From Puteibacter caeruleilacunae (lineage in GTDB: Bacteria > Bacteroidota > Bacteroidia > Bacteroidales > Prolixibacteraceae): a DNA stretch of 64,000 bases. Below are positions 16,622 through 47,821 of this stretch, piece by piece. Under the pieces are notes generated by a model, which saw only the letters and a program-made list of their open reading frames with translations, did no database searches and was not told the DNA's origin. How positions within the stretch are numbered: position 1 is the stretch's first letter; the number at the start of each line of letters is the position of its first letter. The position numbers and the translations under genes were made by a program. The stretch spans positions 186,001-250,000 of the forward strand of contig SJCO01000001.1 of NCBI GenBank assembly GCA_005217565.1, written 5' to 3'.

Positions 16622-16703
16622 TAATAGAGTGCACAAAAAGAAGATTTGAGTATAACGGTTTAGCACTGGAATCGTACCATTGTACTGGATGATCACAAGA
16701 ATA
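16622..16703 (+). promoter_or_regulatory. ~85 bp repeated regulatory box, copy 1 (sulfatase)
   Basis: It contains GAGTGCA, then 21 bp later GAGTATAACGG, then CGTACCATTGTACTGGAT and an AAGAATA end. Three other copies precede the genes at 18425, 43530 and 48054. The box ends 84 bp before the sulfatase start. An 8-mer CAATTTTG, one mismatch from TAnnTTTG, begins 16 bp after it. The rest of the 424 bp gap (16364-16787) holds the terminator and nothing else I recognise. Confidence 0.75.
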
Positions 16704-16787
16704 GTCTGGCTCAGGTCTCCAATTTTGTGAGAGTTTAGCAAGGCTATCCTACTTAACTGAAAATCTAATGACAAAAAAAATAATGAA

Positions 16788-18215
16788 ATGAAGTATTCAA
16801 TGAAACTGTCTCTTGCTTTAGTCTTAGGTATTTCGTCTTCCGTTGGACTGTGTAGCAATGATAAGGCGAAACCGAATGTGGTTTTATTTCTGTTTGATGA
16901 TATGGGCTGGAAAGATCTGGGTGTTTATGGAGCAGAAATCTATGAAACGCCTAATATTGATCAGTTGGCCGAAGATGGCTGTAGGTTTACTCAGGCTTAT
17001 ACCTCAGCACTGATATGTTCTCCGGCAAGAGCTTCCATAATGACGGGTAAGCATCCATTGAAACTCGAAATGTGGAATCATTTACAAACCATTAAAAAGA
17101 AGGATGCAACTGATTTGTTACCTCAGCTCTTAAGTGACGCAGGGTACTCAACCTGGCATGTTGGGAAATGGCACATGGGCAATCCTAAAGATCAGACGAT
17201 GCCAACTGATTTGGGATTTCAGAAGAATATTGGTGGCTGGATTAGCTGGGGACCTGGGTCTTACTTTTGGCCTTATAATTGGAAAGAAGAAGGAGGTTCG
17301 ATGGGGCATCCGAATGACTGTATCCCATTGAGAGAAGGAGGACAGGAGGGAGAGCAGATTACTGATCGGTTAACACGGGAGGCTATTTCTTTAATTAAGA
17401 ATAGGGCAAAAGATAAACCATTTTTCCTAAACTTCTGGTACTACTCGGTTCATAATCGTAAAGAGGCAAAATCAGAATTGATAAGAAAGTATGAGAACAA
17501 GATTAAAGATGCAGGTTTAAAACCAACGTATAGAAAGCATCAGTATACAGGGGATAGTATCGTAACTTCGGAAACGAATGCAGTTTATGCGGCGATGTTG
17601 GAAACAGTAGATAATTCGGTAGGTGAGGTTGTCAAATTATTGAAAGCCATTGGAGAATATGAAAATACGCTATTTATTTTCTATTCAGACAATGGACCAA
17701 CAACGAATGATGTGCCGTGTACACCTTTAATGGGAGGAAAGAATACTACATATGAAGCGGGCGTACGAATGCCTGCATTCTTTACCTGGAAAACTGAAAT
17801 TGAATCAGGCACAGTAAGTAATGACCGGATCATCATCATGGATATTTATAATACGGTGCTAGAAGCTTCTAACATTGATATTCCAGAAGGTTACCATGGA
17901 GATGGTGTTTCTCTGATTTCTCATTTTCATGGTAAATCAGTTCCGGACAGAGATTTTTATTGGTATTTTCCATGGAACAGACCTATGTATGCTGGTCGAT
18001 CGAGTGCAGCATTACTAGATAAGAATGGGATGAAGTATATTCACTTCTTTGAAGGTGACCACCCTGAGTTATATAATCTCAATGTGGATATGGCAGAGGA
18101 GAATGATTTGATCAGAAATCATTCAAAGAAAGGAGAACATATGGCTCAAAAGCTAGCACATTATCTTGATGAGGTGGGTATTTCAAGAATGAAGAAGCAA
18201 CTGGCAAAGGAGTAG
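16788..18215 (+). CDS. Secreted S1-family sulfatase
   Basis: 475 residues, a normal length. A signal peptide covers about 1-24; a second ATG at 16800 is an alternative start. The active-site motif is ICSPARASIMTG with Cys77, the residue converted to formylglycine, and the CxPxR core complete (Pro79, Arg81). Metal ligands are Asp37-Asp38 in FDDMGW and the Asp-Asn pair in FYSDNGPT. HVGKWHMG and the GGK segment (LMGGKNTTYEAGVRMP) are typical of S1 enzymes. It removes sulfate esters from glycans in the periplasm or outside. The subfamily and position specificity cannot be set by eye. A dedicated copy of the repeated box stands upstream, and it is probably monocistronic. A formylglycine-generating or anaerobic maturase gene is not in this window. 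Confidence 0.93.
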   Translation: MKYSMKLSLALVLGISSSVGLCSNDKAKPNVVLFLFDDMGWKDLGVYGAEIYETPNIDQLAEDGCRFTQAYTSALICSPARASIMTGKHPLKLEMWNHLQTIKKKDATDLLPQLLSDAGYSTWHVGKWHMGNPKDQTMPTDLGFQKNIGGWISWGPGSYFWPYNWKEEGGSMGHPNDCIPLREGGQEGEQITDRLTREAISLIKNRAKDKPFFLNFWYYSVHNRKEAKSELIRKYENKIKDAGLKPTYRKHQYTGDSIVTSETNAVYAAMLETVDNSVGEVVKLLKAIGEYENTLFIFYSDNGPTTNDVPCTPLMGGKNTTYEAGVRMPAFFTWKTEIESGTVSNDRIIIMDIYNTVLEASNIDIPEGYHGDGVSLISHFHGKSVPDRDFYWYFPWNRPMYAGRSSAALLDKNGMKYIHFFEGDHPELYNLNVDMAEENDLIRNHSKKGEHMAQKLAHYLDEVGISRMKKQLAKE

Positions 18216-18256
18216 TTAAACCTGCATTGATATTATATCTTTAGTAAATGCATTGA

Positions 18257-18353
18257 AATCAATGTTTTGATTATCTGAGTGCATCAAATAATGATATGAG
18301 TATAACGGTTTAGCACTAGAATCGTACCATTGTACTGGATGATTGCAGAAATA
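18257..18353 (+). promoter_or_regulatory. ~85 bp repeated regulatory box, copy 2 (977-residue glycosidase-like gene)
   Basis: This and copy 3 are the best-matched pair, alike from AATCA through TTTTGATTATCTGAGTGCATC to the AGAATA-like end. Two TGAGT half-sites are 21 bp apart; an imperfect dyad AACGGT-N16-ACCATT follows. It ends 71 bp before the start codon at 18425. Confidence 0.8.
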
Positions 18354-18405
18354 TTGATTAACTCTTTGCATATAGGAAACCAAATCGGAAAACCGAATAA
18401 TATAA

Positions 18406-18418
18406 AATCTAAAAATCT
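18406..18418 (+). promoter_or_regulatory. Repeated leader motif AATCTAAAAATCT
   Basis: It ends 6 bp before the start codon, the same spacing as in front of the ABC ATPase gene at 4549. Probably part of the initiation region. Confidence 0.4.
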
Positions 18419-18424
18419 TTTAAG

Positions 18425-21358
18425 TTGATGAAATATTTGATAAAACAAAGTCTGGTCATAATGGTTGCCTTAGTGGGGGTACTACCATCGGTTTATGGGC
18501 AGAATTACAAAGCAGCAGTAGAAAAATTGCCAATAATTAGTGGAACTTATGAGAGTGGGATTAAAACAGATTGGCTTATCGAAAAGCCTGTCGAAAAGGC
18601 TAAAGTATTCAGAGACGAAGACAGTAAAGAATTGATTATTTCCAATGGTATTATTTCTCGTACATTTCTATTGAGCCCTAATGCGGCAACGACAAGTTTA
18701 AAGGTGCTAAGTAAGCAACAAGAACACATTCGAGCAGTTAAGCCTGAGGCTGTAATTTCAGTAAACGGTTTTACTGTTAATGTTGGTGGATTAACCGGTC
18801 AACCTAACTTGGCATTTCTGTATCCCGACTGGTTAAGCGATTTAAAAGCAGATCCGCTTTCGTTTAAATTCTCAGGCTTCAAAATTAGTGAGCCAGAGAA
18901 GCGTTTCGAATGGAATAAAGTACGCCACTGTGCACCTGATTCAGACTGGCCTCCAAAAGGTGTAAAGCTTCAAATGAATTATCAGTTAACAGATGTAAGT
19001 CCTGAAGAGCTGATCAGCATTGCTGAGGGAAGTAGTGTGGGACGAAAAGAGATTTATCATGACGATTTTGCAACCATGAAAAATGTTTGGAAAATCCGTA
19101 CTAGTCCAACTCATGAAAGAAGCTCTTTCTTTAACGAAGGTAAACCAGGAGAAATATATACGCCAAACAATACAGCTGTATATGCCGAATATAATTTGCC
19201 AGAAGGAACTGGTTTGGTGGAAACTTCAATCGATGCAGGAACCGATGTAAGTGGATTCTGGGGACCCGGTATTGCATTGGTATGGAAAGATCGTATCATT
19301 AAATTTAACATGCGTCCAGGAAACGAATCAGGTGCAAAGAATAACGGTGCATGGAGATTTACAGTATTTGACGGAAAACGTGAAAATACACGTGCTGGGG
19401 GAAAGGATAATGTTGATTTTAGTGGAACATGGTTTATGCGTCTTAGAATTGATAGTACTAAAGTGTATTGTGAAGCTAAGCCCAAAGGAGGTAAATGGAA
19501 AACCTATCAGGCCGTTGAATTTGGAACAGAAGTACCAGATCCACTTTCTGTAAGAATAGGAAAGTTGGGAAAAAATGCTTCGGGTGAAGATCATACTACT
19601 CCGGGGGAGTTGGTGCGTTTAACCATGAATGAATTTTCAGCATATGGCAAATTGGATGAAGCTGAAGTTCAGAAAATAAAATCTAGATTGAGCGACTTGC
19701 AGAAGTTGGTGGTTTCTGTAAACTACGAATTGTACGATGGTGTTCCTGTACTATCGAAATGGGTGGAGTTAAAAAATAATTCTGGAAAAGATGTAAAGGT
19801 CGATCAGATTATTTCTGAATATCTGGGTATTGCCGATCATAACCCTTACGGAGGATATCGTGGTCGTGAAGATCTGAAAATAAAGCCTAACATTCATTTT
19901 GAGACAGATATGGCTTTTTCTTCTATGTCAGCAAAAGTATCCAATAGTCATGCTGTACATTGGGGTACTGATCAGGATTATGTTACTCAGATATCCTGGA
20001 TTCAAGATATTAAAAACACCATGCGAATTTATCCGGGAAATGGTTATCATTTGAATGTCGCTGCAGGCAAATCATTTGAGTCTATTCGATCTTTCATGAT
20101 TCCTTATGACTCCTATGATAAAGAACGTAATGGTTTGGCACAACGGAAAATGTACCGCACCATTGCGCCATGGGTTACTGAAAATCCAATGATGTTTCAT
20201 ATTACTCGTTCAAAATGGGATGAATATAGTAATGGAATTGATCAGGCTGCTGAATTGGGATTCGAAATGGTAAACTTCTCTTTTGGTAGTGGTTTTAATC
20301 CTGAAGATGATAGTGATAAAAATATCGCTAAAATGAAAAGATATGCCCAATATGCTAATAGTAAAGGAATAAAAATTGGGACCTATTCGTTGCTTGCTTC
20401 ACGTCGAATAAGTGATAAAGACGATGTTGTTAATCCGAAGACAGGAAAACCGGGGGGCTTTGCTACTTTTGGAAATTCTCCTTGTTTGGAAAGTGAGTGG
20501 GGACAGGAATATTTTCGTAAAATGTACAAGATGTTTTCTGAAACAGGTTTTCTAACCTTTACGCATGATGGGAACTATCCGGGTGATGTTTGTGCATCAA
20601 CAGAGCATCCTGGTCATGAAGGTTTGGGCGATTCTCAATATAAACAATGGAAAAAGATTACAGATTTTTATAAGTGGTGTAAAGCGAAAGGTGTTTATCT
20701 ACGTGTTCCTGACTATTATTATTTATCAGGTTCTAATCAGCAAGGTGTTGGTTATCGTGAGAATAACTGGAGTCTGCCACGTCGTCATCAACTCATTCAT
20801 ACACGTCAGAATATTTACGATGGTACTTGGGAAAGTACACCAAGTATGCGTTGGAGTTTTATTCCTCTAACACAATATCATGGAGGTGGTGCAGCGGCAA
20901 CAATTGAGCCTCTAAATGAGCATTTGGTACATTACGAAATGATGTTGGTAAGTAATATTGGTCTTGGACTTCAATCAGTATTGCGAGGTCCTCGTTTATA
21001 TGATACTGATAAAACCAAGCAAATGGTATCACGTGTTACCAAATGGTTTAAAAAATACCGAAATATTCTGGAAAGTGATCTTCTTCATCTACGTCGTGCC
21101 GATGGTCGCGACATTGATTATATGATGCATGTAAATCCAGATCTTAAAGAAAAAGGTTTCTTATTAGTATTTAATCCAACGGATAACGTAATTCGGAAGA
21201 AAATAACTGTGCCTTTGTATTACACTGGCTTAACTGATAATGCTAATATTCGCGAGCAGGAAAATAAGGCAAAATCGTATAAATTAAATCGTGCCTACGA
21301 AGTAGAAATTGAAGTAGAAGTACAACCTAATTGGTATAATTGGTTTGTGATTGAATAA
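18425..21358 (+). CDS. Large secreted glycoside hydrolase-like protein, GH36-clan-like barrel with an inserted beta-sandwich domain
   Basis: 977 residues, signal peptide 1-25 (cleavage near VYG/QNY). Three parts can be seen. Residues ~60-190 and ~420-560 look like two halves of a supersandwich domain as in GH36-type enzymes. Between them (~205-410) is an inserted concanavalin-like module with FWGPGIALVW and strands ending in TMNEFSAYG. Residues ~575-880 look like a TIM barrel with repeated beta/alpha units; FLTFTHDG (Asp near 714) sits where a clan-D nucleophile would be expected. A small C-terminal beta domain closes it. I cannot place it in a numbered CAZy family. Box copy 2 and the sulfatase neighbour argue for a role in sulfated-glycan breakdown. 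A terminator follows at 21382. Confidence 0.6.
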   Translation: MMKYLIKQSLVIMVALVGVLPSVYGQNYKAAVEKLPIISGTYESGIKTDWLIEKPVEKAKVFRDEDSKELIISNGIISRTFLLSPNAATTSLKVLSKQQEHIRAVKPEAVISVNGFTVNVGGLTGQPNLAFLYPDWLSDLKADPLSFKFSGFKISEPEKRFEWNKVRHCAPDSDWPPKGVKLQMNYQLTDVSPEELISIAEGSSVGRKEIYHDDFATMKNVWKIRTSPTHERSSFFNEGKPGEIYTPNNTAVYAEYNLPEGTGLVETSIDAGTDVSGFWGPGIALVWKDRIIKFNMRPGNESGAKNNGAWRFTVFDGKRENTRAGGKDNVDFSGTWFMRLRIDSTKVYCEAKPKGGKWKTYQAVEFGTEVPDPLSVRIGKLGKNASGEDHTTPGELVRLTMNEFSAYGKLDEAEVQKIKSRLSDLQKLVVSVNYELYDGVPVLSKWVELKNNSGKDVKVDQIISEYLGIADHNPYGGYRGREDLKIKPNIHFETDMAFSSMSAKVSNSHAVHWGTDQDYVTQISWIQDIKNTMRIYPGNGYHLNVAAGKSFESIRSFMIPYDSYDKERNGLAQRKMYRTIAPWVTENPMMFHITRSKWDEYSNGIDQAAELGFEMVNFSFGSGFNPEDDSDKNIAKMKRYAQYANSKGIKIGTYSLLASRRISDKDDVVNPKTGKPGGFATFGNSPCLESEWGQEYFRKMYKMFSETGFLTFTHDGNYPGDVCASTEHPGHEGLGDSQYKQWKKITDFYKWCKAKGVYLRVPDYYYLSGSNQQGVGYRENNWSLPRRHQLIHTRQNIYDGTWESTPSMRWSFIPLTQYHGGGAAATIEPLNEHLVHYEMMLVSNIGLGLQSVLRGPRLYDTDKTKQMVSRVTKWFKKYRNILESDLLHLRRADGRDIDYMMHVNPDLKEKGFLLVFNPTDNVIRKKITVPLYYTGLTDNANIREQENKAKSYKLNRAYEVEIEVEVQPNWYNWFVIE

Positions 21359-21381: not shown

Positions 21382-21414
21382 AAAACGGGCGTGCAACAAT
21401 GTATGCCCGTTTTT
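21382..21414 (+). terminator. Intrinsic terminator, near-copy of the one at 16460
   Basis: AAAACGGGC (21382-21390) pairs with GCCCGTTTT (21405-21413), and the T-run continues. Loop and stem are almost the same as at 16460-16491. It separates the glycosidase-like gene from the HTCS gene. Confidence 0.85.
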
Positions 21415-21562
21415 TATGATACTTTTTCCGTTGCCCTTAACGGAGTATTGTCTGCATTAATTTTATGTGAATTGACAAAAGAATTATGGTATTGTACCCG
21501 ATCTTTATTAATTTCCCGAGTCTTTTTAATTAAGCCTAAAAAATCGAACTAACATACTAACT

Positions 21563-24500
21563 ATGGGAAAGATTTCCTGCGTGATCATTCTACTATTTCT
21601 TATACTCGCTAAAACGATGGTATTTTCGGCTGAGAGGGAAATCGTCTTAACTTCTCCTGTTGGGAAAAATACACCAATTAGCAACTATATCCTCTGTATC
21701 AACCAAGATTCACTAGGAGTAATGTGGATTGGTACCAATGAAGGTGTTTGTAAATATGATGGAAGAAAGACACAGTTAATTGATTTCAAAGAAGACTATA
21801 GGGATAAACGCGAAACAAGAAGTTTATTTGTTGATTTAGACGGTGATATGTGGATTGGCCGTCAAGGGAAACTCTACCTCCATCATTACAAAACTGATTT
21901 AATGTCGGAGGTGTCGTTAACCAGTCTGAACAAGGATATTTCATCTATTTATCAGCAAAGCGATTCCATATTCTGGCTGGGGAACACCGAAGGAGGGGTG
22001 ATTCGATATAATAAGGTTAGTGGTAGGTCGACAAATTATGAATTGCCAGAGAAGGATAGAATATCCAGTTTACATGCTGTTAATGATTCTACACTCTTTG
22101 TTGGACTGCATAATTCTGGGATCTATTATTTTAATATTCCAACGGGGAAATATCAGGCAATGAATGAAAGCTTGCTGAAGGGGGATAAAACTGTAAGAGC
22201 AGGAATCAGCACAGCAAATCATGGCTATCTGTTTTGTTCCAATAAGGCGATCTATTGTTTGAAAGATAATGCGATAACGTTTTGTTCTTTCCTTGGTAAG
22301 GATCAAGAAACAAAGCTGCCCTATAGGGTTACTTCTGTTGAACAGGTAAGTGATTCTACGTTTTGGATAGGGACCGATGGAAGTGGTATTTTAAGCTATA
22401 ATATTGATCAGAATAAGATTGAAATATTAACACTTAACTATGAACGTCCGGTGGAGGCGATTACTTCGCTGTATAAATCGAAAGATAAGATTGTTTGGAT
22501 TGGAACAACTAATAACGGATTGCTACAGTATAATCCACTAAAGACCGAATTTGTACATTGGGGCTATGAAAAAGGAGGAGTGTGGGGGTTAGGTAATAGT
22601 GCAGTATTGCATATCGCACCGCTAAATGGTAATCGTTTGCTTGTGGCTCTCGATGGCAGTGGATTAGATATCTATAATCGTGAAACCAATCACTTTGATC
22701 ACCTTAGTGAAAAGCAGCTTAACTTTGGTATTATCCGATGTACTTATCAGTCGTTGGATGGAAAACTTTGGTTTGGAACGTATAGTAAAGGACTAAAATG
22801 TTGTCGGATAAATGAAAGAAACAAGATGACTCCTGTTGATATCCCTTTTTCATTTGATAGTGGCCCAACAATCAATGTTTTATATGAAGATAAGGCAGGG
22901 AATCTTTGGATCGGTACTGGAACAAAAGGTGCATTTATGTATAATCCACAGTCAAACCATATAAGAAGTTTTTCTCCTAGTGGTGAAGAGGAAAAGATCT
23001 CTTCTGATCTTATTACTGTTTTTGCTGAAGATTCGGATGGTAATATTTGGATCGGAGGATATCACGGTTTGGATAAATATATTGTTGAAGAGGATCGACT
23101 GCAACCTATAACCTTGTGTGAATGGGATGGCGCGCCTATTTATATCACCAGTATTACGGAAGGAAAAGATGGGAATATTTGGATTGCAAGTAAAAAGGGA
23201 TTATGGCGAATTCTAAAATCAGGTCAGGAAAGCTTTTTATATACTGAAAAGGATGGGTTGCCAGATGCGAGTGTTAATGCTATCTGTGCTGATGACTTTG
23301 GTGATTTTTGGATAACAACTGACCATGGTATTGCCTTGTTTAATCCGGAAACTAATAACTTTCGTGTGTTTAATATTGATGATGGAGTTGAAGGTATACA
23401 GAATCCTGGGGCCATTTTAAAGGTAGATGATGGGAAAATATTCTTTGGTGGTACTAATGGATTATATGCAGTGAATCCTTCGCATGTTAAGACGAATCCT
23501 TTTAAACCAGAGGTGATTCTTGAGGACATGAAGATTCTTTCTGATTTGAGTAATAAGCGTAATGGAAACCCGACGATTAATCTTCATGGTCAAGATAATG
23601 TAGTATTGTCCCATAAGGAGTCGACATTCTCTATCGACTTCGTTGCTGTAAACTATACGCTTCCAGAGAAGAATCGGTATGTTTATCAGTTGCAAGGGTA
23701 TGATAGTGATAAAATAACTAAAGTTGATGGAGGAAGAGTTCGGTATACCAATGTACCTCCAGGTACTTATCAGTTTAATGTAACAGCTTCAAATAATGAT
23801 GGGGTCCTGAATAAGGAGGGAAAAACACTAACAATAGTGATTAATCCTCCATGGTATATGACCTACTGGGCTCTTGCGATTTGGATAGTGTTGGCGGTTC
23901 TGGTTATTCTACTTCTGAATAGATACATTTTACTTCAAGCCCGGTTGAAGGATGAACTGAAAATGGAACGTTTGGAGAAAGAAAAACAGAATGAGATTGT
24001 ACAGAATAAGCTTCGCTTTTTTACCAATATTACACATGAACTGCGTTCACCTCTAACATTGATTTTTGGTCCTTTGGAGAAGCTACTAAAGGAAGAACAA
24101 CAAGGTACTGTAGGATATAAAAGTTTATTTCAAATTAAAAATAGTGCAAACCGACTGCTACGCTTGATTAATCAGATACTTGAGTTTAGAAAGGCAGAAC
24201 AAGGTATGAGTCAGTTAAAGGTTAGTCGTTGCGATTTCGTGTGGTTAACCAGTGAAATTTGTAATTCTTTCCGTGAGCTTGCCGAAGATAAACAGGTCGA
24301 TTTGATAGTTTATGCTCCTGAGAAGTTGGAGGTATGGATTGATCAGTCAATGGTGGAGATTATTCTTATTAACCTATTGTCGAATGCTTTTCGTTATACT
24401 CCCCGAAAGGGAAGAATCGATGTGAGTATAAGGATTAATGATGTCGAGAAAACAGTGGTGCTCACTGTTAAGGATAGTGGTCGTGGAATTTTAGAGAAGG

Positions 24501-25555
24501 ATTTGCCTAACATATTTGATCGTTTCTATCAGGCAGATGAAGATCATCAAGGGGGGACAGGTATTGGTTTAGCACTAACCAAGAGACTTGTAGAATTGCA
24601 TCATGGTATGATTTCGGTGGAGAGTGTTTATGGTGAGGGAGCGACTTTTAGTGTAATATTTTTACAAGGGAAAGAACAGTTCAATGCAGATCAGTTGGTA
24701 GAAACAGATAAGAATTGTCTACGGTCGGCAGTCGTGATTGAAGAAGATGTTAATCTGGTACCAGCTTTGGTTGAAGCGAGAAGAAATAATGAAAAGATCC
24801 AAACTGTACTTTACGTTGAGGATGAGCCGGAACTTCAGAGTTTTGTTACTGCTGAGCTAAGTAATCTATTTCATGTTGAAGTGGCTTCTGACGGTAAAGA
24901 AGGCTACGAAAAGGCCATTAAGCTTAATCCTGATCTCATTATATCAGATGTGATGATGCCCAATATGACAGGATGGGAGTTGTGTGAAAAGGTGAAGAAG
25001 AATTTTGATACCAGTCATATTCCTGTAATATTACTTACTGCCCTGGGGAGTGAGAGTCACCAGCTACAAGGTCTGGAGATTGGTGCGGATGATTACATTG
25101 CAAAACCGTTTGGTGTTCAGGCTTTATGCTTGAAGGCCTGCAATTTGCTGGAAACACGACAGCGCCTGGTAAGTCGCTTTACATCCAAAGATGCATTGAA
25201 GGTTGAGGTTGGTGAGTTTGAATCACCTGATGAGGAGTTCCTGAATAAAGCAACGCAGATTATTCAGGATAATGTAGGCGATCAACAGTTCAGGATAGAG
25301 CGACTTATCCAGGAACTGGGAATTAGTCGTACCTTATTCTTTAAGAAGATTAAAGCCCTCACAGGATTAGCTCCAAGTGATTTTATTCGTACTGTGCGAT
25401 TAAAATATGCTGCTGAGTTGCTAATAAAAAGCCCTAAGAATATCTCAGAGGTTGCCTTTGATACTGGATTTGCCTCCCCAAAACATTTTAGGGAACATTT
25501 TAAGAAGCAGTTTGGTGTTACACCAAGCGTCTACATTCAGGAAAATAAATCATAG
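21563..25555 (+). CDS. Hybrid two-component system sensor/regulator (HTCS)
   Basis: 1330 residues combining sensor and regulator. After a signal sequence, the periplasmic part holds a double beta-propeller with repeated LWIGT/IWIGG motifs (~30-690) and a Y_Y_Y domain (~695-770). One transmembrane helix (~775-800) leads to a HisKA domain with His825 in FFTNITHELRSP, an ATPase domain (NLLSNAFRYT, DSGRG, GGTGIGLAL), a receiver domain with Asp1129 in LIISDVMMPNM and Lys in AKPFG, and a C-terminal AraC-type helix-turn-helix (~1225-1325). HTCS proteins bind oligosaccharides in the periplasm and switch on nearby PUL genes. The enzyme-free surface operon that starts 236 bp downstream is the natural target; the repeated ~85 bp boxes are a second candidate. 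Confidence 0.96.
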   Translation: MGKISCVIILLFLILAKTMVFSAEREIVLTSPVGKNTPISNYILCINQDSLGVMWIGTNEGVCKYDGRKTQLIDFKEDYRDKRETRSLFVDLDGDMWIGRQGKLYLHHYKTDLMSEVSLTSLNKDISSIYQQSDSIFWLGNTEGGVIRYNKVSGRSTNYELPEKDRISSLHAVNDSTLFVGLHNSGIYYFNIPTGKYQAMNESLLKGDKTVRAGISTANHGYLFCSNKAIYCLKDNAITFCSFLGKDQETKLPYRVTSVEQVSDSTFWIGTDGSGILSYNIDQNKIEILTLNYERPVEAITSLYKSKDKIVWIGTTNNGLLQYNPLKTEFVHWGYEKGGVWGLGNSAVLHIAPLNGNRLLVALDGSGLDIYNRETNHFDHLSEKQLNFGIIRCTYQSLDGKLWFGTYSKGLKCCRINERNKMTPVDIPFSFDSGPTINVLYEDKAGNLWIGTGTKGAFMYNPQSNHIRSFSPSGEEEKISSDLITVFAEDSDGNIWIGGYHGLDKYIVEEDRLQPITLCEWDGAPIYITSITEGKDGNIWIASKKGLWRILKSGQESFLYTEKDGLPDASVNAICADDFGDFWITTDHGIALFNPETNNFRVFNIDDGVEGIQNPGAILKVDDGKIFFGGTNGLYAVNPSHVKTNPFKPEVILEDMKILSDLSNKRNGNPTINLHGQDNVVLSHKESTFSIDFVAVNYTLPEKNRYVYQLQGYDSDKITKVDGGRVRYTNVPPGTYQFNVTASNNDGVLNKEGKTLTIVINPPWYMTYWALAIWIVLAVLVILLLNRYILLQARLKDELKMERLEKEKQNEIVQNKLRFFTNITHELRSPLTLIFGPLEKLLKEEQQGTVGYKSLFQIKNSANRLLRLINQILEFRKAEQGMSQLKVSRCDFVWLTSEICNSFRELAEDKQVDLIVYAPEKLEVWIDQSMVEIILINLLSNAFRYTPRKGRIDVSIRINDVEKTVVLTVKDSGRGILEKDLPNIFDRFYQADEDHQGGTGIGLALTKRLVELHHGMISVESVYGEGATFSVIFLQGKEQFNADQLVETDKNCLRSAVVIEEDVNLVPALVEARRNNEKIQTVLYVEDEPELQSFVTAELSNLFHVEVASDGKEGYEKAIKLNPDLIISDVMMPNMTGWELCEKVKKNFDTSHIPVILLTALGSESHQLQGLEIGADDYIAKPFGVQALCLKACNLLETRQRLVSRFTSKDALKVEVGEFESPDEEFLNKATQIIQDNVGDQQFRIERLIQELGISRTLFFKKIKALTGLAPSDFIRTVRLKYAAELLIKSPKNISEVAFDTGFASPKHFREHFKKQFGVTPSVYIQENKS

Positions 25556-25791: not shown

Positions 25792-26946
25792 ATGAGAGGA
25801 AAAAAACTTCTATTGTTTTTAATGTCCCTATTGGTGTTTAGCTGCAACAATGATGATTTCGATGTAGGCTATATCGGAATAAAGCAGGTACAACATATGC
25901 ATGCCGATGGGAAAATCAAACTAATGGTCGATGTGGCTAGTGAAGCAGTCAAACTAAATGTTGATGCCGAAGACCAGAAAATCAGCCAAAATGTTGCTTC
26001 AGGAGTAGCGCAAACAATAGTTATTGAAGGTATGGAAGAAGGAGATCATGTATTGACTTTGACAACTGAAGATGCGCATGGAAGAATATCTGATCCTTTG
26101 ATTCATTACATTCATGTTTATGGTGAAGAGTATTGTAAAACATTGAAGGTGCGTACCCCTGTAGGTATGGATTATCAGGATGGGAAAATCATCTTTAAAT
26201 TCAATGCCGCATCGGCAGATCACAAGTACTCATTGTGTTCTTACATTAAAACAGGTGATCAGCCAACCGTAGATACCCTGAAAGCAGATGCCATAGAATT
26301 ATCCTTGAGAGATGTTGATTTTACTAAAGGTTATGAGTTTCATAGCTATTATGCTCCAACTGACCGTACCTATGAGTTCTTTGATGGAGGCTCAGAGCAA
26401 ATGGAGTGGGGAAAAGTAAAGGTTCAACATGCTAAAGATATGGTGACTGAAGTACACTTGCAAACTGATGATGCAGGTGATGCCTGGGGGGGAAGTATAG
26501 CCAAATTGTTCGATGGTATAGTTGATGGAGGTAATTTCTATCATGCAGGAACAGAATCTGTTCTTCCTTTAACTTTTACTGTAGACCTTGGAAAAGAGGT
26601 TGAATTGCTTCAAATGGATATTGATGCACGACCTGGTTTTGGTCACCGACTATCGAAGCGTTACGATATCTATGGACATGTTGATTTGATCAATGCAGAA
26701 ACCGAAACTTCTTGTGCGGATTTGGATGCCTGGGAAACTGAGATGTTCAGCAAAGGATGGAAGAAGATAGGCTATATTGATGTAGCCTTGGCTCAGACAG
26801 GTAATGCAAAAACTGTTATCAAGTTTGATGATGGTGTTGATGGTGCCAGATATATACGTATTCGTTGCGATAAAAACTGGGAGAATTCACAATACCTAAA
26901 CTTAGGTGAAATCACCTTTTATGTGAATGCGATTTATAACAACTAA
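25792..26946 (+). CDS. Surface lipoprotein, DUF4998-like with C-terminal discoidin-like domain
   Basis: 384 residues. Lipobox VFSC gives Cys18, followed by Asn-Asn-Asp-Asp, an export-signal-like acidic stretch. The N-terminal half (~20-120) resembles the DUF4998 beta-sandwich found in PUL lipoproteins. The C-terminal half (~225-380) reads as an F5/8-type-C (discoidin) jelly roll: WGGSIAKLFDG, LPLTFTVDLGKEVELLQ, and the closing ARYIRIRCD...LNLGEITFY strands. No catalytic motif is visible. It is the first gene of the eight-gene operon and probably a surface glycan-binding protein of the PUL. Domain names are by eye and need a profile search. Confidence 0.7.
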   Translation: MRGKKLLLFLMSLLVFSCNNDDFDVGYIGIKQVQHMHADGKIKLMVDVASEAVKLNVDAEDQKISQNVASGVAQTIVIEGMEEGDHVLTLTTEDAHGRISDPLIHYIHVYGEEYCKTLKVRTPVGMDYQDGKIIFKFNAASADHKYSLCSYIKTGDQPTVDTLKADAIELSLRDVDFTKGYEFHSYYAPTDRTYEFFDGGSEQMEWGKVKVQHAKDMVTEVHLQTDDAGDAWGGSIAKLFDGIVDGGNFYHAGTESVLPLTFTVDLGKEVELLQMDIDARPGFGHRLSKRYDIYGHVDLINAETETSCADLDAWETEMFSKGWKKIGYIDVALAQTGNAKTVIKFDDGVDGARYIRIRCDKNWENSQYLNLGEITFYVNAIYNN

Positions 26947-26960: not shown

Positions 26961-29156
26961 ATGAAAATAAAATATGGATTTTATGGGATCTTGCTGATTC
27001 TATTGATACTCAGTGTGTCATGTGAAAAGGAGTTGCACGAACGTTACAAAGACCCAGACAATTTAAATTCAACAATATATAAGGAGTTGAAGAATAATGA
27101 ATCGTTCTCCTTATTTGTCGAAGCATTAGATCGTTTAGAGCTTGCCCGAAGTTGTGATGGTAGGGCTGCCTTGACTGTCTTTGCTCCAGATAATGATGCG
27201 ATAAATCGATGGATGACAGCTAACTCATATAATAAAATTAGTGATATTCCTTTGGAAGAACTAAGTCTAGCAGTGAAGAGTCATGTCATTGAGAATATCT
27301 TTAATGAAGAGCAGGTTAACCAACTCGATTACGATGTGGTTTACCGATTAATGTCGTTGGCACAGAAATCTATTGTTGCGGAAACACAAGCCTCTACAGG
27401 AAAATCGTTTCATGTTTACAATGAGAAGAAAATGATGCCTGTATTTACGCCAACGATGTTTGCAGCTGAGAAAATAAGCGATCCTGCTTTTAATTACAAA
27501 TACATCTTTGGGAAGGATTATAACGATAGAATGATGTTTGCCAATGCAAAGGTTACAGAGTTCAGTATTCCTTGTACCAACGGATACCTTTACCATGTGG
27601 ATGATGTGGTGACCAGCATCACTAATTTTGAGGATATCCTGAAGGAGAAAAACGATTATTCGCTTATGGCAAGTATGTATGACAGATGCAGTAGCTATGA
27701 GTATGACAAGGCTATGAGTGAGGAGTATGTTGGGATTGCAGATAGTATCTTTACTAAAACTTACTCTAATTCTCCAGAAATCAATACTGAACAGTATGGT
27801 ACCCTATTGGCTGAAAAGATGAAAGCCAGTGCTACCTATTTTGCTGTGAAGAATACGGTTCTTGAGAATTACTTAATGCAAACCTTCTTTAATGAAAAAG
27901 TATCAGCCATTGATGATATCAGTATTATTAGTATAGGTTTTGTATTGAAGTATTTATCAGGTGAAAATCTGATAGGATGGCCAGAGAAGATTCAGGGAGG
28001 TACCTTTAGAAATAACTTCGGTAGCTATATCAATTTCGATATTAATAGTGATGTTGATTTTGTAAACTATGCTTCCAATGGTTTGGTTTATGGATTGAAT
28101 AGGATGCCTGAAATAACGCTTTTCAGTAGTATAATGAAGATTCCATTTACCGATCCTGATTATTCGTACTTCTTATATGCTGCTCAGTTTGCTAATATTC
28201 TTGATCTGTTAGTAAATAATCGTTACGATTATACCGCGTTTCTGCCTAAAAATGAAGATTGGGAAGATGCCGGAATTAAATTGGATGTTGGAGACCCTAA
28301 TCTATTGGGTGATGAAGAATTCCAGATCTGGAACTTTAATAACTCTCGTTGGGAAGGTGCTTCCCAGGCTGCCATTCGTCGTTTTGTGAAGAATCATATT
28401 GTAAAGAACTTCACCAATTTAACTAATGATATGGTATTAGCTGAAACTTTGAATGATTTCGGCTTAGTATTTTTGAGTAATCAAGGTGTTGTAGGTGGTG
28501 GTAATCAATATGCTGGAGAAGTTGCTGAATTTACTAGCGATGAAACAAATGCATCAAATGGTCGCTATTATACAACCAATAAGGTAGTTAAATTGATGCC
28601 TTATAGTTACGGTGAAGTGATGAAAACCAATCCTGAATTTCAGGAATTCTACAAGCTCGTTGATAAGACTGGAGGGTGGAGAAAATCCGGTGGAAAAATT
28701 ACTGGGATTAATTGGCTTCCTCCTAATACTTATAACATATTTATTCCTTCCAATGAGGCTATTCTTGCTGCTCTCGAGGAAGGTAAAATTCCTGTTGATC
28801 CAGATCCTTCACTCAGCGAGGAAGAAATCAATGATCCTGATATCAGTAAAGCTGTGAAATTTGAACCACTTGTCGACTGGTTGAAATATTATTTTGTAGG
28901 ACTCAACGGATTAGTGCGTACTCAGTTTATTCTACCTACCGAGCAGTTTGATGCAGGAATGGATACTCCGTTGGTTGATGAGGAAAATAGCACTAACGAA
29001 GAAGATGTGTATCATCAATTGCATATTAAGTTTAGTTCAGAAGAGCTTAAAATTATTGGTAAAGATGGAGATGAAGCAAATGTGCAGTTAGATGGAACAG
29101 CTTTAGGTGCCAATGCTTTAATCTATAAGGTAGACCATGTAGTAAGTTATCAATAA
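26961..29156 (+). CDS. Fasciclin-domain lipoprotein 1
   Basis: 731 residues with lipobox SVSC (Cys21) and Glu-Lys-Glu after it, suggesting surface export. At least two fasciclin (FAS1) domains are visible: residues ~45-215 with LTVFAPDNDAINRWM and a closing NGYLYHVDDVV, and ~390-560 and beyond with TAFLPKNEDWEDAG and the KNHIVKN strand. A further FAS1-like stretch with NIFIPSNEAI lies near 590-730. FAS1 domains mediate adhesion or glycan/protein binding; none is a known enzyme. It starts 14 bp after the previous gene and ends 13 bp before susC, so it is part of the PUL operon and likely a surface glycan-binding protein. Confidence 0.85.
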   Translation: MKIKYGFYGILLILLILSVSCEKELHERYKDPDNLNSTIYKELKNNESFSLFVEALDRLELARSCDGRAALTVFAPDNDAINRWMTANSYNKISDIPLEELSLAVKSHVIENIFNEEQVNQLDYDVVYRLMSLAQKSIVAETQASTGKSFHVYNEKKMMPVFTPTMFAAEKISDPAFNYKYIFGKDYNDRMMFANAKVTEFSIPCTNGYLYHVDDVVTSITNFEDILKEKNDYSLMASMYDRCSSYEYDKAMSEEYVGIADSIFTKTYSNSPEINTEQYGTLLAEKMKASATYFAVKNTVLENYLMQTFFNEKVSAIDDISIISIGFVLKYLSGENLIGWPEKIQGGTFRNNFGSYINFDINSDVDFVNYASNGLVYGLNRMPEITLFSSIMKIPFTDPDYSYFLYAAQFANILDLLVNNRYDYTAFLPKNEDWEDAGIKLDVGDPNLLGDEEFQIWNFNNSRWEGASQAAIRRFVKNHIVKNFTNLTNDMVLAETLNDFGLVFLSNQGVVGGGNQYAGEVAEFTSDETNASNGRYYTTNKVVKLMPYSYGEVMKTNPEFQEFYKLVDKTGGWRKSGGKITGINWLPPNTYNIFIPSNEAILAALEEGKIPVDPDPSLSEEEINDPDISKAVKFEPLVDWLKYYFVGLNGLVRTQFILPTEQFDAGMDTPLVDEENSTNEEDVYHQLHIKFSSEELKIIGKDGDEANVQLDGTALGANALIYKVDHVVSYQ

Positions 29157-33820: not shown

Positions 33821-33827
33821 AGACGAT

Positions 33828-39739: not shown

Positions 39740-39740
39740 A

Positions 39741-43251: not shown

Positions 43252-43289
43252 AAAACAGGGGGTACTTTTAAATAAGTACCCCCTGTTTT
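43252..43289 (+). terminator. Strong 16 bp hairpin terminator after the DUF4838 gene
   Basis: AAAACAGGGGGTACTT (43252-43267) pairs perfectly with 43274-43289; the loop is 6 bases and the right arm ends in TTTT. Confidence 0.85.
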
Positions 43290-43342: not shown

Positions 43343-43439
43343 AATCAGTGTTTTGATTATCTGAGTGCATCAAAAAATGATTTGAGTATAACGGTTTAGT
43401 GCTAGAATCGTACCATTGTATTGGATAATCGCAAGAATA
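43343..43439 (+). promoter_or_regulatory. ~85 bp repeated regulatory box, copy 3
   Basis: Nearly the same as copy 2, from AATCAGTGTTTTGATTATC through TGAGTGCATC, TGAGTATAACGG and CGTACCATTGTATTGGAT to AAGAATA. It ends 90 bp before the start codon at 43530. CGACTTTG, a poor -7 match, begins 16 bp after the box, the same distance as CAATTTTG behind copy 1. Confidence 0.8.
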
Positions 43440-43529
43440 CATTGGAAATAAACACCGACTTTGATGCGTGGAATAAAACCAACGTATTCTAGCAATCCAC
43501 TAATCGAATAATCAATAAATATCAAAAGA

Positions 43530-45869
43530 ATGAAGCAAACCATCATTATTTTAGCTTTGCTGATATCCACCCTCTCGGGTATCGCACAAAAAACAAATGA
43601 GTTGTCGGTAAATGGCTTGACACTTTCGTTTAATAATAAATTACAACTTACAAGTCTGAAAGGAAATCAGGAATATCTTCCATCAGGAGCAGAAGGATAT
43701 CTTATTTCACTACGTGTGAATAATGATACATTATATCCGCAGAGTGCTACCTGGAAAAAGAATAACATTACTGCCAAATTTGAGCAGGGGATTGAAATCA
43801 CCCTGAGATATGAGCAAGAGAAGAATTACCTAAAATTCACTATTGCAGAGGTAAAGAATGAAAAGCCTATTGATGCAGTGCTATATGGTCCTTTCCCTAC
43901 AACAATTAATGAAACAATAGGTGAGATTGTTGGTGTAGTAAGAGAGCAGGGGTATGCTATCGGAATGCAGAGTTTGAACGCCAAAACTACAGGTGGGAAA
44001 TTACTAAAGCGTGACGGTAGCGATGAGGCGCGTGGTACTGCTGCGACCGAAGAGTCATATGGTAGTAGTCTGCAAGCATATTGTATCAACCGTAACAAAG
44101 ACCGTGTGCACACAATCTGGAACAATCGCATTCCTAATGCTGTTATTCAAGCTAATCCTGATGGGAAATTGCAAGGAAGTGCAATCGCATTGTTTGGCTG
44201 TAAAGAGGTCGATGTATTGTCACGCCTTGAAGAGATTGAGTTGAAGGAAGGTCTTCCTCATGCAACAATCAACGGTGTTTGGGCCAAGGTGAGTCCTGAA
44301 GCTAACAAACCATATTTTATTACTTCATTCACTGAGTCAACCATCGATGAATGTCTGGAGTATACCCAGAAGCTTGGTTTTACGACACTTTACGATGGCG
44401 GTCCGTTTTCTAATTGGGGACATTTCGATCTTCATAAAAATGCGTTCCCTAATGGATGGGAGGGGATGAAAGCGTGTGTAGAGAAAGCGCAAGCTAAAGG
44501 TATTCGTTTAGGAGTACATACGTTGACTAATTTTATTACTACAAACGATGCGTATGTGTCGCCTATTCCTCACAAAGGATTGATGACTTATTGTAAAACT
44601 GTACTAACAAAGCCTATTTCAGCGACAGATACTGAGATCTATGTGGAGAATATCGATGGATATGATTTTAAAGATGCTTGTCAGGCGTTACGTATTGGTG
44701 ATGAAATCATTCGCTTTGCAGGAGTGTCGAAAGATAAACCATATCGCTTGATTAATTGTAAACGAGGACAATACAAAACCAAGGCCCAGTCGCATGATAA
44801 AGGTGCAGTGACTGCTCGTTTGGCTGACCATGGTTACAAGACGCTGTTCCCAACATTTGAGTTCCAGAAAGAGATCATCAACAATCTGGCTAATTTCTTG
44901 AATCATACAGGTGTAGGACAGATTGATTTCGATGGGCATGAAGGAGGCTGGGGAACTGGCGAAGGAGAGTTTGGCATGGATTACTTCAGTGAGCAGCTGA
45001 CTAAGCAATTGAATCACGAACTACGCAATGGATCCAGTCGCTCGAATCACTACTACTGGCATACTGTATCGTACCTAAACTGGGGAGAACCTTGGTATGG
45101 CGGTTTTACCAAAAGTCAGGGACATTATCGCTATAAAAATCAGGCGTTATTGAAGCGAAACTATATTCCTAATGGCTTGGGATGGTTCTTACTGACTCCT
45201 ACCACAACGCTACAAGAATTTGAATATATGTTGGCTCGCTCTGCAGGATATGATGCCGGTTATGCGTTATTTAGTAAAGTTGAGAATTTTAAGAAGAATC
45301 CAGAGTTTGATGCAATTGCTCATGCAATTAATATCTGGGAAGAGGCTCGTTTGAAGAAGGTGTTCAGTGAGAAGCAATTAAAGCTATTGCAGGATGTGAA
45401 CAGAGATTTCTCACTGGAAAAAGTAAGCGACAAGGAGTTCAAGTTACAGTATTATACCAAGGAGAAGTTTGAGTTGTTGAATGAAATGGTACAACCTGGG
45501 CAGCCTAACGATGTGAGTGTAGATTTTAATGTAAAAAGCGATCAACCTTTCTATATGGTGATTGGTGCTATTGGTGAGTCGGGATCTATCAATAAGATCA
45601 TGATCGATTTTAATGGTTTTGATTCTTTTGAAATTGAAACTGAGTTAAAGTCTAATTGGGCTGTGACTTACCGAGGTGATGATAAGCTATTGGTATACGA
45701 TAACAAAGGACGTTTCAAGAAAGCTATCGAGTTTGGAGCAAAGGAGACGTTGTTGAAGGTTGGTGCAAATAATATTCGTGTTAGCGCTGAATTCAGCGAT
45801 GGTGCCGAATTAAAACTAGAAGGCTACATCAGGCTAAAAGATAAAGTAGAAACAGCGAAAGCTAAATAA
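43530..45869 (+). CDS. Secreted TIM-barrel glycosidase-like protein (paralogue of the 48054 gene)
   Basis: 779 residues, signal peptide 1-19 (GIA/QKT). A beta-sandwich (~22-245) precedes a probable TIM barrel (~255-620) with TLYDGGPFSNWGHFD, GIRLGVHTLTNFITT, IDFDGHEGGWGTGEGEFG and YLNWGEPWYGG; a C-terminal beta domain closes it. Acidic residues shared with the paralogue at 48054 are Asp468 and Glu471 (FDGxEGG) and Glu520 (WGEPW), candidates for catalysis. An extra module (~355-430) sits inside the barrel. I recognise no CAZy number. It is driven by box copy 3, and the esterase gene 76 bp downstream is probably in the same transcript. Confidence 0.65.
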   Translation: MKQTIIILALLISTLSGIAQKTNELSVNGLTLSFNNKLQLTSLKGNQEYLPSGAEGYLISLRVNNDTLYPQSATWKKNNITAKFEQGIEITLRYEQEKNYLKFTIAEVKNEKPIDAVLYGPFPTTINETIGEIVGVVREQGYAIGMQSLNAKTTGGKLLKRDGSDEARGTAATEESYGSSLQAYCINRNKDRVHTIWNNRIPNAVIQANPDGKLQGSAIALFGCKEVDVLSRLEEIELKEGLPHATINGVWAKVSPEANKPYFITSFTESTIDECLEYTQKLGFTTLYDGGPFSNWGHFDLHKNAFPNGWEGMKACVEKAQAKGIRLGVHTLTNFITTNDAYVSPIPHKGLMTYCKTVLTKPISATDTEIYVENIDGYDFKDACQALRIGDEIIRFAGVSKDKPYRLINCKRGQYKTKAQSHDKGAVTARLADHGYKTLFPTFEFQKEIINNLANFLNHTGVGQIDFDGHEGGWGTGEGEFGMDYFSEQLTKQLNHELRNGSSRSNHYYWHTVSYLNWGEPWYGGFTKSQGHYRYKNQALLKRNYIPNGLGWFLLTPTTTLQEFEYMLARSAGYDAGYALFSKVENFKKNPEFDAIAHAINIWEEARLKKVFSEKQLKLLQDVNRDFSLEKVSDKEFKLQYYTKEKFELLNEMVQPGQPNDVSVDFNVKSDQPFYMVIGAIGESGSINKIMIDFNGFDSFEIETELKSNWAVTYRGDDKLLVYDNKGRFKKAIEFGAKETLLKVGANNIRVSAEFSDGAELKLEGYIRLKDKVETAKAK

Positions 45870-45876: not shown

Positions 45877-45928
45877 AATATTTTACTTCGCGAGGATGGA
45901 GGATCTCTTTCCTTGCGAAGTAAATATT
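45877..45928 (+). promoter_or_regulatory. Intercistronic hairpin
   Basis: TTTACTTCGC (45882-45891) pairs with GCGAAGTAAA (45915-45924), extendable by A/T pairs. No T-run follows, so it is probably an mRNA-processing or stability stem between the glycosidase-like gene and the esterase gene, not a terminator. Confidence 0.5.
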
Positions 45929-45945
45929 AAAGCAAAAGTTGAAAA

Positions 45946-46872
45946 ATGAATTATATAGAAAAGTATCTCTTTGTTATTTGTCTCCTAATTGGTTTGTCAG
46001 GAATCTCAATCGCGAATGGGCTATCTGCAGAAGGTAGTGATCAAGAGGAGGTTGTAGATGTGTTTATCCTTGCCGGTCAGTCGAACGCTGTGGGATATAA
46101 CAATATTAACACTTACACTCCTACACCTTTCCCTGAGACATTGCGTTCGCAACCAGAAGTGATGTTTTGGCCCGGAAGTAATGCTGCTGAAGAATTTAAG
46201 AATCAATGGATCCATTTACGAGTAGGAGCGTCTTACGTTGGCAAACACTCCTTTGGTCCGGAAATAGGTTTTGGAAAAGCAACGACAGCAGGAAATCCGC
46301 AGAGAAAAATAGCGATTCTAAAGTATGCTGTTGGAGGAACAGGTATTGCTCGTTCTGCTGATTATGATGATTTTATTCCTCAATGTAAAGATTTCAATGA
46401 TAAAGGGAAAAATTGGTATCCTGGTGCTGATAAAAAATCATCCGGGGTGTTATATCAAAATTTGATTGAAAATATCACCAAAGGATTGAATGATTTAAAA
46501 AAACACGGGATTTCATTTCGAGTAGCTGGATTCATCTGGATGCAAGGAGAGCATGAGGCTGGTTTAAGTTTGAAAATGGCCAAGGATTATGAACTTCTAT
46601 TAACCAATTTTATAGATCAAGTGAGATTCTATCTGGAGAATGATGAATTACCCGTGGTAATCGGACAGGTATCAGACAAGTGGTGCTACAAGAATATTGT
46701 GCAGACTGCTCAATTTAATGTTTGTGCTCAAGACCCTTTTGCATCGTTGGTAGTGACTAAGGATTTGCCCCGCACTCCAACCGATGATGCACATTATACT
46801 GCAAATGGAATGGTAATGCTGGGTAATCGCTTTGCAAAAGCAATGCATGGTTTAATTTCTTCCGGCAAATGA
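45946..46872 (+). CDS. Secreted SASA-type (sialate O-acetylesterase-like) carbohydrate esterase
   Basis: 308 residues; signal sequence 1-24. An SGNH-like alpha/beta fold is shown by the nucleophile motif LAGQSNAVG (Ser46), the oxyanion/support motif WMQGEHEA near 198-205 and the Asp-x-x-His pair in DDAHYTANG near 285. This is the SASA (DUF303) family, which covers O-acetylesterases acting on sialate, xylan and other acetylated glycans. In this PUL an acetyl ester on the target glycan is the likely substrate; sialic acid is not implied. The gene follows the glycosidase-like gene by 76 bp and is closed by a terminator at 46947. Confidence 0.85.
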   Translation: MNYIEKYLFVICLLIGLSGISIANGLSAEGSDQEEVVDVFILAGQSNAVGYNNINTYTPTPFPETLRSQPEVMFWPGSNAAEEFKNQWIHLRVGASYVGKHSFGPEIGFGKATTAGNPQRKIAILKYAVGGTGIARSADYDDFIPQCKDFNDKGKNWYPGADKKSSGVLYQNLIENITKGLNDLKKHGISFRVAGFIWMQGEHEAGLSLKMAKDYELLLTNFIDQVRFYLENDELPVVIGQVSDKWCYKNIVQTAQFNVCAQDPFASLVVTKDLPRTPTDDAHYTANGMVMLGNRFAKAMHGLISSGK

Positions 46873-46946
46873 TATTATTACTCCCTTGAAGGGAATGTAT
46901 CGAATATCTTGATTGTATGAAAATGTCGGATTAAAGAATACTTTAC

Positions 46947-46984
46947 GCTGGTAGATTCTATGAATTATGCCAGCTTTTTTTTAT
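46947..46984 (+). terminator. Terminator after esterase gene
   Basis: GCTGG (46947-46951) pairs with CCAGC (46970-46974), followed by eight T. The short stem can be lengthened with a bulge by the TA pairs inside. Confidence 0.65.
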
Positions 46985-47149
46985 TTTATCTCAAAGATAG
47001 CATATAGCAGAAGGTGTGTAAAATGAAGGGAGAGTTTGAGTAAACTTTGTTTTAGTATCAATGAAGTTTTTAATATGAATGGAACAGTGACCAATGCCAG
47101 TCGCGGTCTTGTTGGAGTTTTGTCAAATTTTAGTTGGAGTCTTCTCTTC

Positions 47150-47294
47150 TTCGGTTCCTCTTCGCATCCCATTCGGTCCCCCTTTACCTGAGCTATTAAA
47201 ATATATAGCTTTTGGAAACCTTTTATCATGAAAATGTCTTCTTTTGGAAACATTTGAAAAAGTACGATGGTTGAATACCACTGTTGTAAAGATA
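47150..47294 (+). repeat. Composite intergenic element, copy B
   Basis: TTCG at 47150, 47161 and 47172 (11 bp period); CTTTTGGAAAC occurs twice about 32 bp apart; dyad AAATGT 47232-47237 with ACATTT 47250-47255 (12-base spacer); ATGGTTGA at 47267-47274, TACCAC and TTGTAAAG; TTG-N19-TA at 47271-47294. Order and distances match copy A at 9458-9600. Confidence 0.6.
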
Positions 47295-47730
47295 GTGAAA
47301 AGTGTGGTTTTTGCTGTAATTATCAGGGTAAATATCTTTTGCTATAACTTACAAGATTTTATGACTAGTTGTAACCGATACATTATTCGATAATAAAAGA
47401 TTGTGTCTAATACATGTTGATTGACTTTTATTATTATTGATACCTATTGGTATCCATTGAAGAAGTTAGGGATTATCTGTTTTGGTTGTTATACAAAACA
47501 GGTAAAGACAATATAACGCGATTTTATTGTGAGACATCAAGTACAACGTGAGAATAAATAATTAATCTTTTTCCCTTGTTTAAATATCCTGTTTTTTTCG
47601 TTGAAAGGACAACTAGGTTCGTTTAAAAATGTACAAAAATATAGGTGCTAATTGTACATTATTGATCGGACTAACATTTTTGTTGACAATAAAACCAAAG
47701 AAGGTGCTTCGTTAATGTGTACATAATTAG

Positions 47731-47821
47731 GTGGTTGATTGTCTGAGTACATAATAAAATGATATGAGTAAAGGGGTTTGTCGTTAGATTCGTACCATTG
47801 TGTTAGATAATTGCAAGAATA
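47731..47821 (+). promoter_or_regulatory. ~85 bp repeated regulatory box, copy 4 (most diverged)
   Basis: Keeps TTGATTGTCTGAGT, the second TGAGTA 21 bp later, TCGTACCATTGT and the TTGCAAGAATA end, but the middle is altered (AAAGGGG instead of ATAACGG). It lies 232 bp before the start at 48054, much further than the other copies. Confidence 0.7.

Follow-up and report, generated by a model that had tools for sequence, protein, structure and literature searches.

The predicted motifs of 16 hybrid two-component system (HTCS) regulators of Bacteroides thetaiotaomicron are direct repeats with a mean spacing of 21 bp (PMC3878776), and most HTCSs carry a SHIP motif (PMC11253607). The promoter read by sigma-ABfr, the primary sigma factor of Bacteroidota, has a -7 element with the consensus TAnnTTTG and a TTTG near -33, and a promoter motif of this kind precedes 81% of the primary transcription starts of B. 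thetaiotaomicron (PMC7366714). A direct repeat and a -7-like element were found at a fixed distance from each other in a 64,000-base stretch of Puteibacter caeruleilacunae (contig SJCO01000001.1, positions 186,001 to 250,000, forward strand; hereafter the window), within a box that stands before four genes. The box is quite probably an activator-dependent promoter, composed of an HTCS operator and a -7 element, that was copied within one polysaccharide utilisation locus (PUL), and the HTCS encoded at 21563 is most likely its regulator. This reading is carried by the sequence, spacing, and uniqueness of the boxes, by a fifth site, and by a genome-wide signal for repeats 21 bp apart. As with the B. 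thetaiotaomicron operators, a direct repeat of about 21 bp serves several units of the PUL that encodes the HTCS, a likeness of geometry (PMC3878776); here, in addition, four promoters are alike over 77-115 nt and not just in the two sites. The switch most likely belongs to an already known kind, of which this case is a further example: an ordinary, well-defined HTCS-type operator with its core promoter, which serves five transcription units of one locus, in four cases as a copy of a single cassette.

The four boxes had been described in an earlier note made from the sequence of the window, and all four were confirmed at their positions (Table 1), each oriented like its downstream gene. In an unguided repeat search, the top direct-repeat family of the window consisted of four 115-nt copies, which started at 16589, 18239, 43325, and 47707 and had 75-100% identity to the reference copy. 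A scan of the whole genome (7,968,869 bases) with the pattern of invariant columns, allowing up to 3 mismatches, returned four places only, which were these copies, and the reversed control pattern gave 0 matches; the box is therefore not a product of chance. This genome scan, which the earlier note had proposed, thus placed the full box only at the four promoters of the cluster. A shorter box pattern, also with up to 3 mismatches, was found in this genome and in none of the other 392 genomes of the order and 139 of the family (393 and 140 with this genome included; the two sets overlap partly and hold no congeneric genome). BLAST of the 115-nt copy 3 against 61 genomes returned its own four copies plus a 23-nt match in one relative. 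Since the copies precede unrelated genes and their similarity ends rather sharply, they could also have come from a dispersed mobile repeat, similar to a miniature inverted-repeat transposable element, that lies before the genes by chance; an inverted repeat of 11 nt (91%) is present near both ends of copy 2, though of no other copy. However, no terminal inverted repeat is common to the copies, all of them lie in gene orientation, and no further copy exists in this genome or, by the shorter pattern, in the others, which makes such an origin barely credible.

Table 1. Positions of the boxes, the related sites, and the genes and hairpins around them. Positions without a contig name refer to the window.
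Feature	Position	Strand	Details
Fifth site (overlooked in the earlier note)	9794-9850	+	TGAGTGCA-N13-AGAGTAC; TAACCTTG at 9843-9850
Operon behind fifth site	9944-16363	+	Pfam
FecR-like anti-sigma	9944-10966	+	Pfam
SusC-like with STN domain	11083-14589	+	Pfam
SusD-like	14591-16363	+	Pfam
Terminator-like hairpin	16460-16489	+	between susD-like gene and box 1
Box 1	16622-16703	+	before sulfatase gene; half-site 1 AGAGTGCA 16626-16633; half-site 2 TGAGTA 16647-16652; -7-like TACCATTG 16675-16682
Sulfatase gene	16788-18215	+	behind box 1; Pfam PF00884
Box 2	18257-18353	+	before 977-residue gene; half-sites 18276-18283, 18297-18302; TACCATTG 18325-18332
977-residue protein	18425-21358	+	behind box 2; 44% identity to protein at C184 locus
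HTCS	21563-25555	+	proposed regulator of the boxes; Reg_prop, Y_Y_Y, HisKA, HATPase_c, Response_reg, AraC-type HTH (Pfam)
Terminator-like hairpin	43252-43289	+	16 pairs; just upstream of box 3
Box 3	43343-43439	+	before 779-residue gene, probably also SASA esterase 45946-46872; half-sites 43362-43369, 43383-43388; TACCATTG 43411-43418
779-residue protein	43530-45869	+	behind box 3; paralogue, 35% identity to box-4 product
Box 4	47731-47821	+	before 819-residue gene; half-sites 47744-47751, 47765-47770; TACCATTG 47793-47800
819-residue protein	48054-50513	+	behind box 4; no Pfam match at E 1e-3
Half-site pair	C184:80922		33.6 bits; before alpha-N-acetylglucosaminidase gene
Half-site pair	C9:46564		25.0 bits; before 558-residue DUF2961 gene; locus with own HTCS
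Half-site pair	C9:49189		22.2 bits; before 824-residue gene; locus with own HTCS
Half-site pair, weaker	C9:139210		16.7 bits; near another HTCS

Each box carries a direct repeat with the half-site TGAGTGCA followed exactly 21 bp on by TGAGTA, the first half-site varying to AGAGTGCA in copy 1 and TGAGTACA in copy 4. The half-sites at this distance, which had been noticed before, were seen in 4/4 copies, with AGAGT in copy 1. In all four boxes, the second half-site is followed, 28 nt on from its first base, by TACCATTG, which matches the -7 element TAnnTTTG at 5/6 fixed positions. The usual spacing between the -33 and -7 elements is 19-21 nt. At this spacing, no TTTG was found before the -7 element of the boxes, and 23 nt before its TA the aligned sequences read ATAA in copies 1-3 and AAAG in copy 4. 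Compared with the sigma-ABfr promoters as presented in PMC7366714, TACCATTG and its counterpart at the fifth site, TAACCTTG, are alike in their -7 element and stand at a fixed distance from the operator, whereas in place of TTTG the second half-site reaches into the -33 position. A half-site in this place is what an activator-dependent promoter would be expected to show. Among the 86 columns examined in the boxes, 23/26 in the half-sites and the -7 element were invariant versus 32/60 in the remainder (Fisher p 0.0016, with the elements picked post hoc). The AAGAATA-like end claimed for the box reads AGAAATA in copy 2 and AAGAATA in the other three. Copy 4 alone has an extra half-site-like TGTGTACATAAT 28 bp upstream of TGAGTACATAAT (window 47716-47755), and in copy 3, AATCGTACCATTGTATTGGA is followed 21 bp on by a stretch with 70% similarity (window 43406-43446).

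A fifth site with these elements was found upstream of the FecR-SusC-SusD operon. A half-site matrix built from the four boxes alone scored this site (9788-9824) at 19.5 bits, versus 10.1 bits for the next match in the window. Its half-sites are 21 bp apart, and TAACCTTG, which matches TAnnTTTG at 5/6 positions, stands at the same 28-nt distance as in the boxes; matches of at least 5/6 to TAnnTTTG occur at 1.2% of the intergenic plus-strand positions of the window (71/5818). A pattern of half-sites and -7 element built from all five sites had five exact matches in the genome, all inside this cluster, and since the five sites themselves went into the pattern, the count indicates uniqueness and is not an independent discovery. 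Elsewhere in the genome, the pattern occurred with 1 mismatch at one place (C9) and with 2 mismatches at two. The spacer of the fifth site was identical to those of the boxes at 3-5/21 positions, that is, it showed no similarity. Judging from these alignments, what is common to the fifth site and the boxes is the operator and the -7 element, and the rest of the box appears to be particular to the four promoters. The box had been reported as missing before the SusCD operons, and a regulon limited to catabolic genes had been proposed. The first statement holds for the full box, but the half-site pair and the -7 element precede the first SusCD operon with the same spacing; the switch is therefore not restricted to catabolic genes. 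By the matrix and pattern scans, the motif is common to five promoters of the locus, one SusCD operon included. None of the 14 best matches to the half-site matrix in the window (down to 6.6 bits) lay before 25792, 45946, 51172, 53341, or 58835, so that, among these matches, no operator stands upstream of the esterase gene, the GH2 gene, or the SusCD operons that begin at 25792 and span 51172-53341.

The translation of the HTCS gene at 21563 has a SHIP motif in the receiver domain. This HTCS is the first candidate for the regulator because it is located among the five sites, and since a 21-bp direct repeat is the published form of HTCS operators and the five sites surround the gene, the dedicated regulon suggested in the earlier note is the best reading. 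The significance of the 21-bp spacing was assessed at 42 loci of this genome, 41 of them with an HTCS, with the window excluded and the box motif unused. The sample comprised 40 stretches around HTCS matches, L010 (which holds one HTCS match), and L013, and left out 10 further full-length HTCS matches. At lags of 10-32, TAnnTTTG-like candidates before open reading frames were scored for a repeat of 8 nt in which 7 or more positions agree and which begins 26-40 nt upstream of the candidate; these candidates partly overlap and are not all independent. At lag 21, 26/423 candidates had such a repeat, whereas lags 10-18 and 24-32 averaged 5.2 and reached at most 15 (lag 11), and no other spacing before -7-like sites gave as many repeats as 21 bp. 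A listing made with a slightly different range of offsets comprised 22 upstream regions.

In the proposed mechanism, TGAGTGCA and TGAGTA, 21 bp apart, would form the operator of an HTCS, most likely that at 21563. The operator would abut the core promoter, in that the T of TACCATTG, a putative -7 element of the sigma-ABfr type, follows the start of the second half-site by 28 nt and this half-site extends into the place expected for the -33 element. A glycan signal on the sensor domain would lead to phosphorylation of the HTCS, which would bind as a tandem dimer on one face of the DNA and recruit RNA polymerase. The genes for the sulfatase, the 977-residue protein, the 779-residue protein (probably together with the esterase), and the 819-residue protein would be switched on in this way, and the fifth site would switch on the FecR-SusC-SusD operon as well. 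The four long boxes would derive from one cassette, whereas only the working elements would be kept at the fifth site and at the other loci. An uncharacterised HTCS would thus acquire a candidate regulon of five promoters in one locus, with perhaps a few more sites elsewhere. A 21-bp repeat just upstream of TAnnTTTG could help to predict HTCS operators where related genomes for footprinting are lacking, and the 977-, 779-, and 819-residue enzymes, which have no Pfam match, would be tied by the regulon to a testable glycan response.

The half-site pair recurred at three further genomic places that lack the remainder of the box, two at C9:46-49k and one at C184:81k, so other regulators may share the regulon, or it may reach past the window. 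When up to 1 mismatch was allowed, the pair pattern was found at 10 places versus 2 for the reversed pattern: four in the window, three at C9 (two at 46-49k and one at 139k), one at C184, and two outside these loci, with box 1 not among the 10 owing to its 2 mismatches. A TAnnTTTG match of at least 5/6 at the exact 28-nt offset was seen at the fifth site and at one of the two C9:46-49k sites. The same operator could accordingly be served by a main regulator located elsewhere or shared within a multi-locus regulon, such as the C9 HTCS, the AraC-type regulators at C184, or several HTCSs of the same specificity. The excess over the reversed pattern is in favour of such sharing, as are the recurrence of TGAGTGCA-N13-nGAGTnC at C9:46-49k (two) and C184:81k (one), with a weaker form at C9:139k, and the sulfatase gene and the 44% homologue of the 977-residue protein of box 2 at the C184 locus. 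On the other hand, five sites including all four long boxes surround HTCS 21563, and both C9 and C184 encode their own regulators; a main regulator that is located elsewhere or shared is considered unlikely, though worth keeping in view. The C184 locus (L013, G000:C184:70001-90000) encodes two adjacent regulators (5153-6970 and 7038-8591) with concanavalin-like (Laminin_G_3) and AraC-type domains; this pair does not have the HTCS layout and adjoins the sulfatase and alpha-N-acetylglucosaminidase genes. The HTCS at G000:C9:139210-143553 was the best full-length match to HTCS 21563 among those scored in the genome (32%), with one in-frame TAG near the end of the match, possibly its own stop, and three half-sites, GTGTACA, GAGTACA, and GTGTACT, lie beside it at 21-bp steps.

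Several observations weigh against HTCS 21563 as the dedicated regulator of an HTCS-type promoter. About 50 HTCS genes are present in the genome (76 matches at E <=1e-10, of which 51, its own included, cover most of the query), so HTCS 21563 was picked as the cognate regulator by its position. Assignment of the motif by similarity of the DNA-binding domains failed: in 41 of the 42 loci, how closely this domain resembled that of HTCS 21563 did not predict how well the best site scored (Spearman 0.06, p 0.73), the remaining one having no match to the DNA-binding domain. The loci that carry the pair have other regulators, namely a different HTCS at C9 and AraC-type regulators of another layout at C184. 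At offset 28, the second C9 site and the C184 site match TAnnTTTG at only 4/6 positions, and the C9:139k site has a -7-like element at another offset. With up to 3 mismatches, the pattern of half-sites and -7 element gave 39 matches versus 35 for its reversed form, and only those with 0-1 mismatch exceeded the background. Three of 40 control loci away from HTCS genes had best scores of 19.9, 17.0, and 15.8 bits, and weak sites alone therefore prove little. Lag 21 was again the top lag in these control loci (15/566), a weaker signal that may reflect operators away from HTCS genes, although this is a reading and no proof. In the boxes, at most 12 consecutive columns are invariant, a length that their overall identity could give by chance (p 0.12). 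The searches of related genomes gave no orthologous locus that could be used for footprinting. Finally, binding, the identity of the regulator, the transcription start, the direction of regulation, and the copying are all deduced from sequence. No close relative of HTCS 21563 was found: matches with 31-39% identity (E <=1e-180) were present in 11/140 family genomes, its own included, with only 4 candidates scored per genome, and a scan of genome contigs with the HTCS gave 7 distant loci with 21-33% identity. In 19 loci of other genomes with homologues of the 779-residue protein (37-48%), one of which has only 139 upstream bases, no such half-site pair was found, and the best score was 10.3 bits.

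The four boxes resemble one another well beyond the half-sites and the -7 element. Between boxes, 13-20/21 positions were identical in the spacer and 15-19/23 in the 23 nt after the -7 element, whereas between the boxes and the fifth, two C9, and C184 sites the identities were 3-9/21 and 5-12/23, respectively. From these comparisons, descent from a single promoter cassette, with the half-sites and the -7 element under constraint, is the best reading of this extra likeness and would explain the long similarity without a second factor. The length of the box had earlier been tentatively attributed to two proteins or an RNA element, but this was unsupported, as the boxes fold like shuffled sequences, their dyad is at chance level, and the spacer with TACCATTG does not recur convincingly elsewhere. 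The AACGGT-N16-ACCATT dyad of the earlier description is visible, and with arms of 11 nt, copies 1 to 4 have 9, 9, 8, and 6 complementary positions, respectively; however, when copies 1, 2, and 3 were each shuffled 200 times with dinucleotides preserved, an equally good dyad appeared in 19, 38, and 150 of the shuffles. The dyad also overlaps the -7-like element with its right arm. Elsewhere than in the boxes, the spacer with TACCATTG had one match with 1 mismatch and four with 3 mismatches, versus 5 for the reversed pattern; the former (C47) lies inside a coding frame and was rejected.

A second factor at the box would combine the HTCS with a second signal, either through an extracytoplasmic function (ECF) sigma factor that reads ATAAC-N16-CGTA or through a repressor on the dyad. 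The sequence ATAAC-N16-CGTA, presumably similar to ECF promoters, is readable in copies 1-3, and the spacer and downstream columns are alike beyond the need of the half-sites and the -7 element. The FecR-like gene at 9944 has no sigma-sized open reading frame in the preceding 860 bases, where none exceeds 101 residues, and its partner sigma must be encoded elsewhere or have been lost. A distant ECF sigma reportedly controls part of a sulfatase PUL in B. thetaiotaomicron (PMC12596196). In copy 4, however, the AAC part is gone and ATAAC-N16-CGTA is unreadable, the fifth, C9, and C184 sites do not share the spacer, and neither the dyad nor the few matches of the spacer with the -7 element exceeds expectation, all of which makes a second factor improbable. 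Slightly more improbable is the specific form in which the long boxes take two inputs, with the HTCS on the half-sites and a second factor, perhaps a FecR-held ECF sigma, on the spacer and TCGTACC; if it were true, the enzyme genes would need both glycan sensing and a transport signal, and the transporter operon behind the fifth site would need the HTCS alone.

Conservation of the box could also reflect an RNA element in the 5' leader. A fold of the alignment pairs AGTATAACGGT with ACCATTGTACT, and most pairs are kept by G-U changes in copies 3 and 4, although one pair is broken in copy 4. Compared with shuffles, the leader of copy 3 folded better (z -2.54; 1/200), as did that of copy 1 to a lesser degree (z -1.84; 11/200), whereas leaders 2 and 4 (z 0.16 and 0.01) and the 77-nt boxes themselves (z -0.16, -0.11, -0.26, and -0.57) folded no better than shuffles. 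The leaders diverge past the box, and no Rfam match was found in the window, in which a tRNA scan also found nothing. Moreover, with TACCATTG as the -7 element, the transcript would contain only some 15-20 nucleotides of the shared sequence, which counts against an RNA element and leaves it very improbable. Descent from one cassette, with constraint on the operator and the -7 element, thus stays the preferred account of the long boxes.

Regarding the genes behind the boxes, the 977-, 779-, and 819-residue proteins had no Pfam or NCBIfam match at E 1e-3, and sequence searches of the PDB with the 779- and 977-residue proteins gave a best hit of only E 0.59. The predicted structure of the 779-residue protein, computed from a two-row alignment, was unusable (mean pLDDT 31.6). 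Homologues of this protein were present in 49/140 family genomes, its own included. The SASA esterase gene begins 76 nt past the stop of the box-3 gene with no listed terminator-like site between them, and the esterase is therefore probably cotranscribed from box 3. The hairpin sequences at 16460-16494, after the susD-like gene, and at 21383-21417, after the 977-residue gene, are near-identical (89% over 35 nt). Three fasciclin-domain proteins are encoded among the SusC/SusD-like genes of the window, at 26961-29156, 33744-35396, and 35411-36925.

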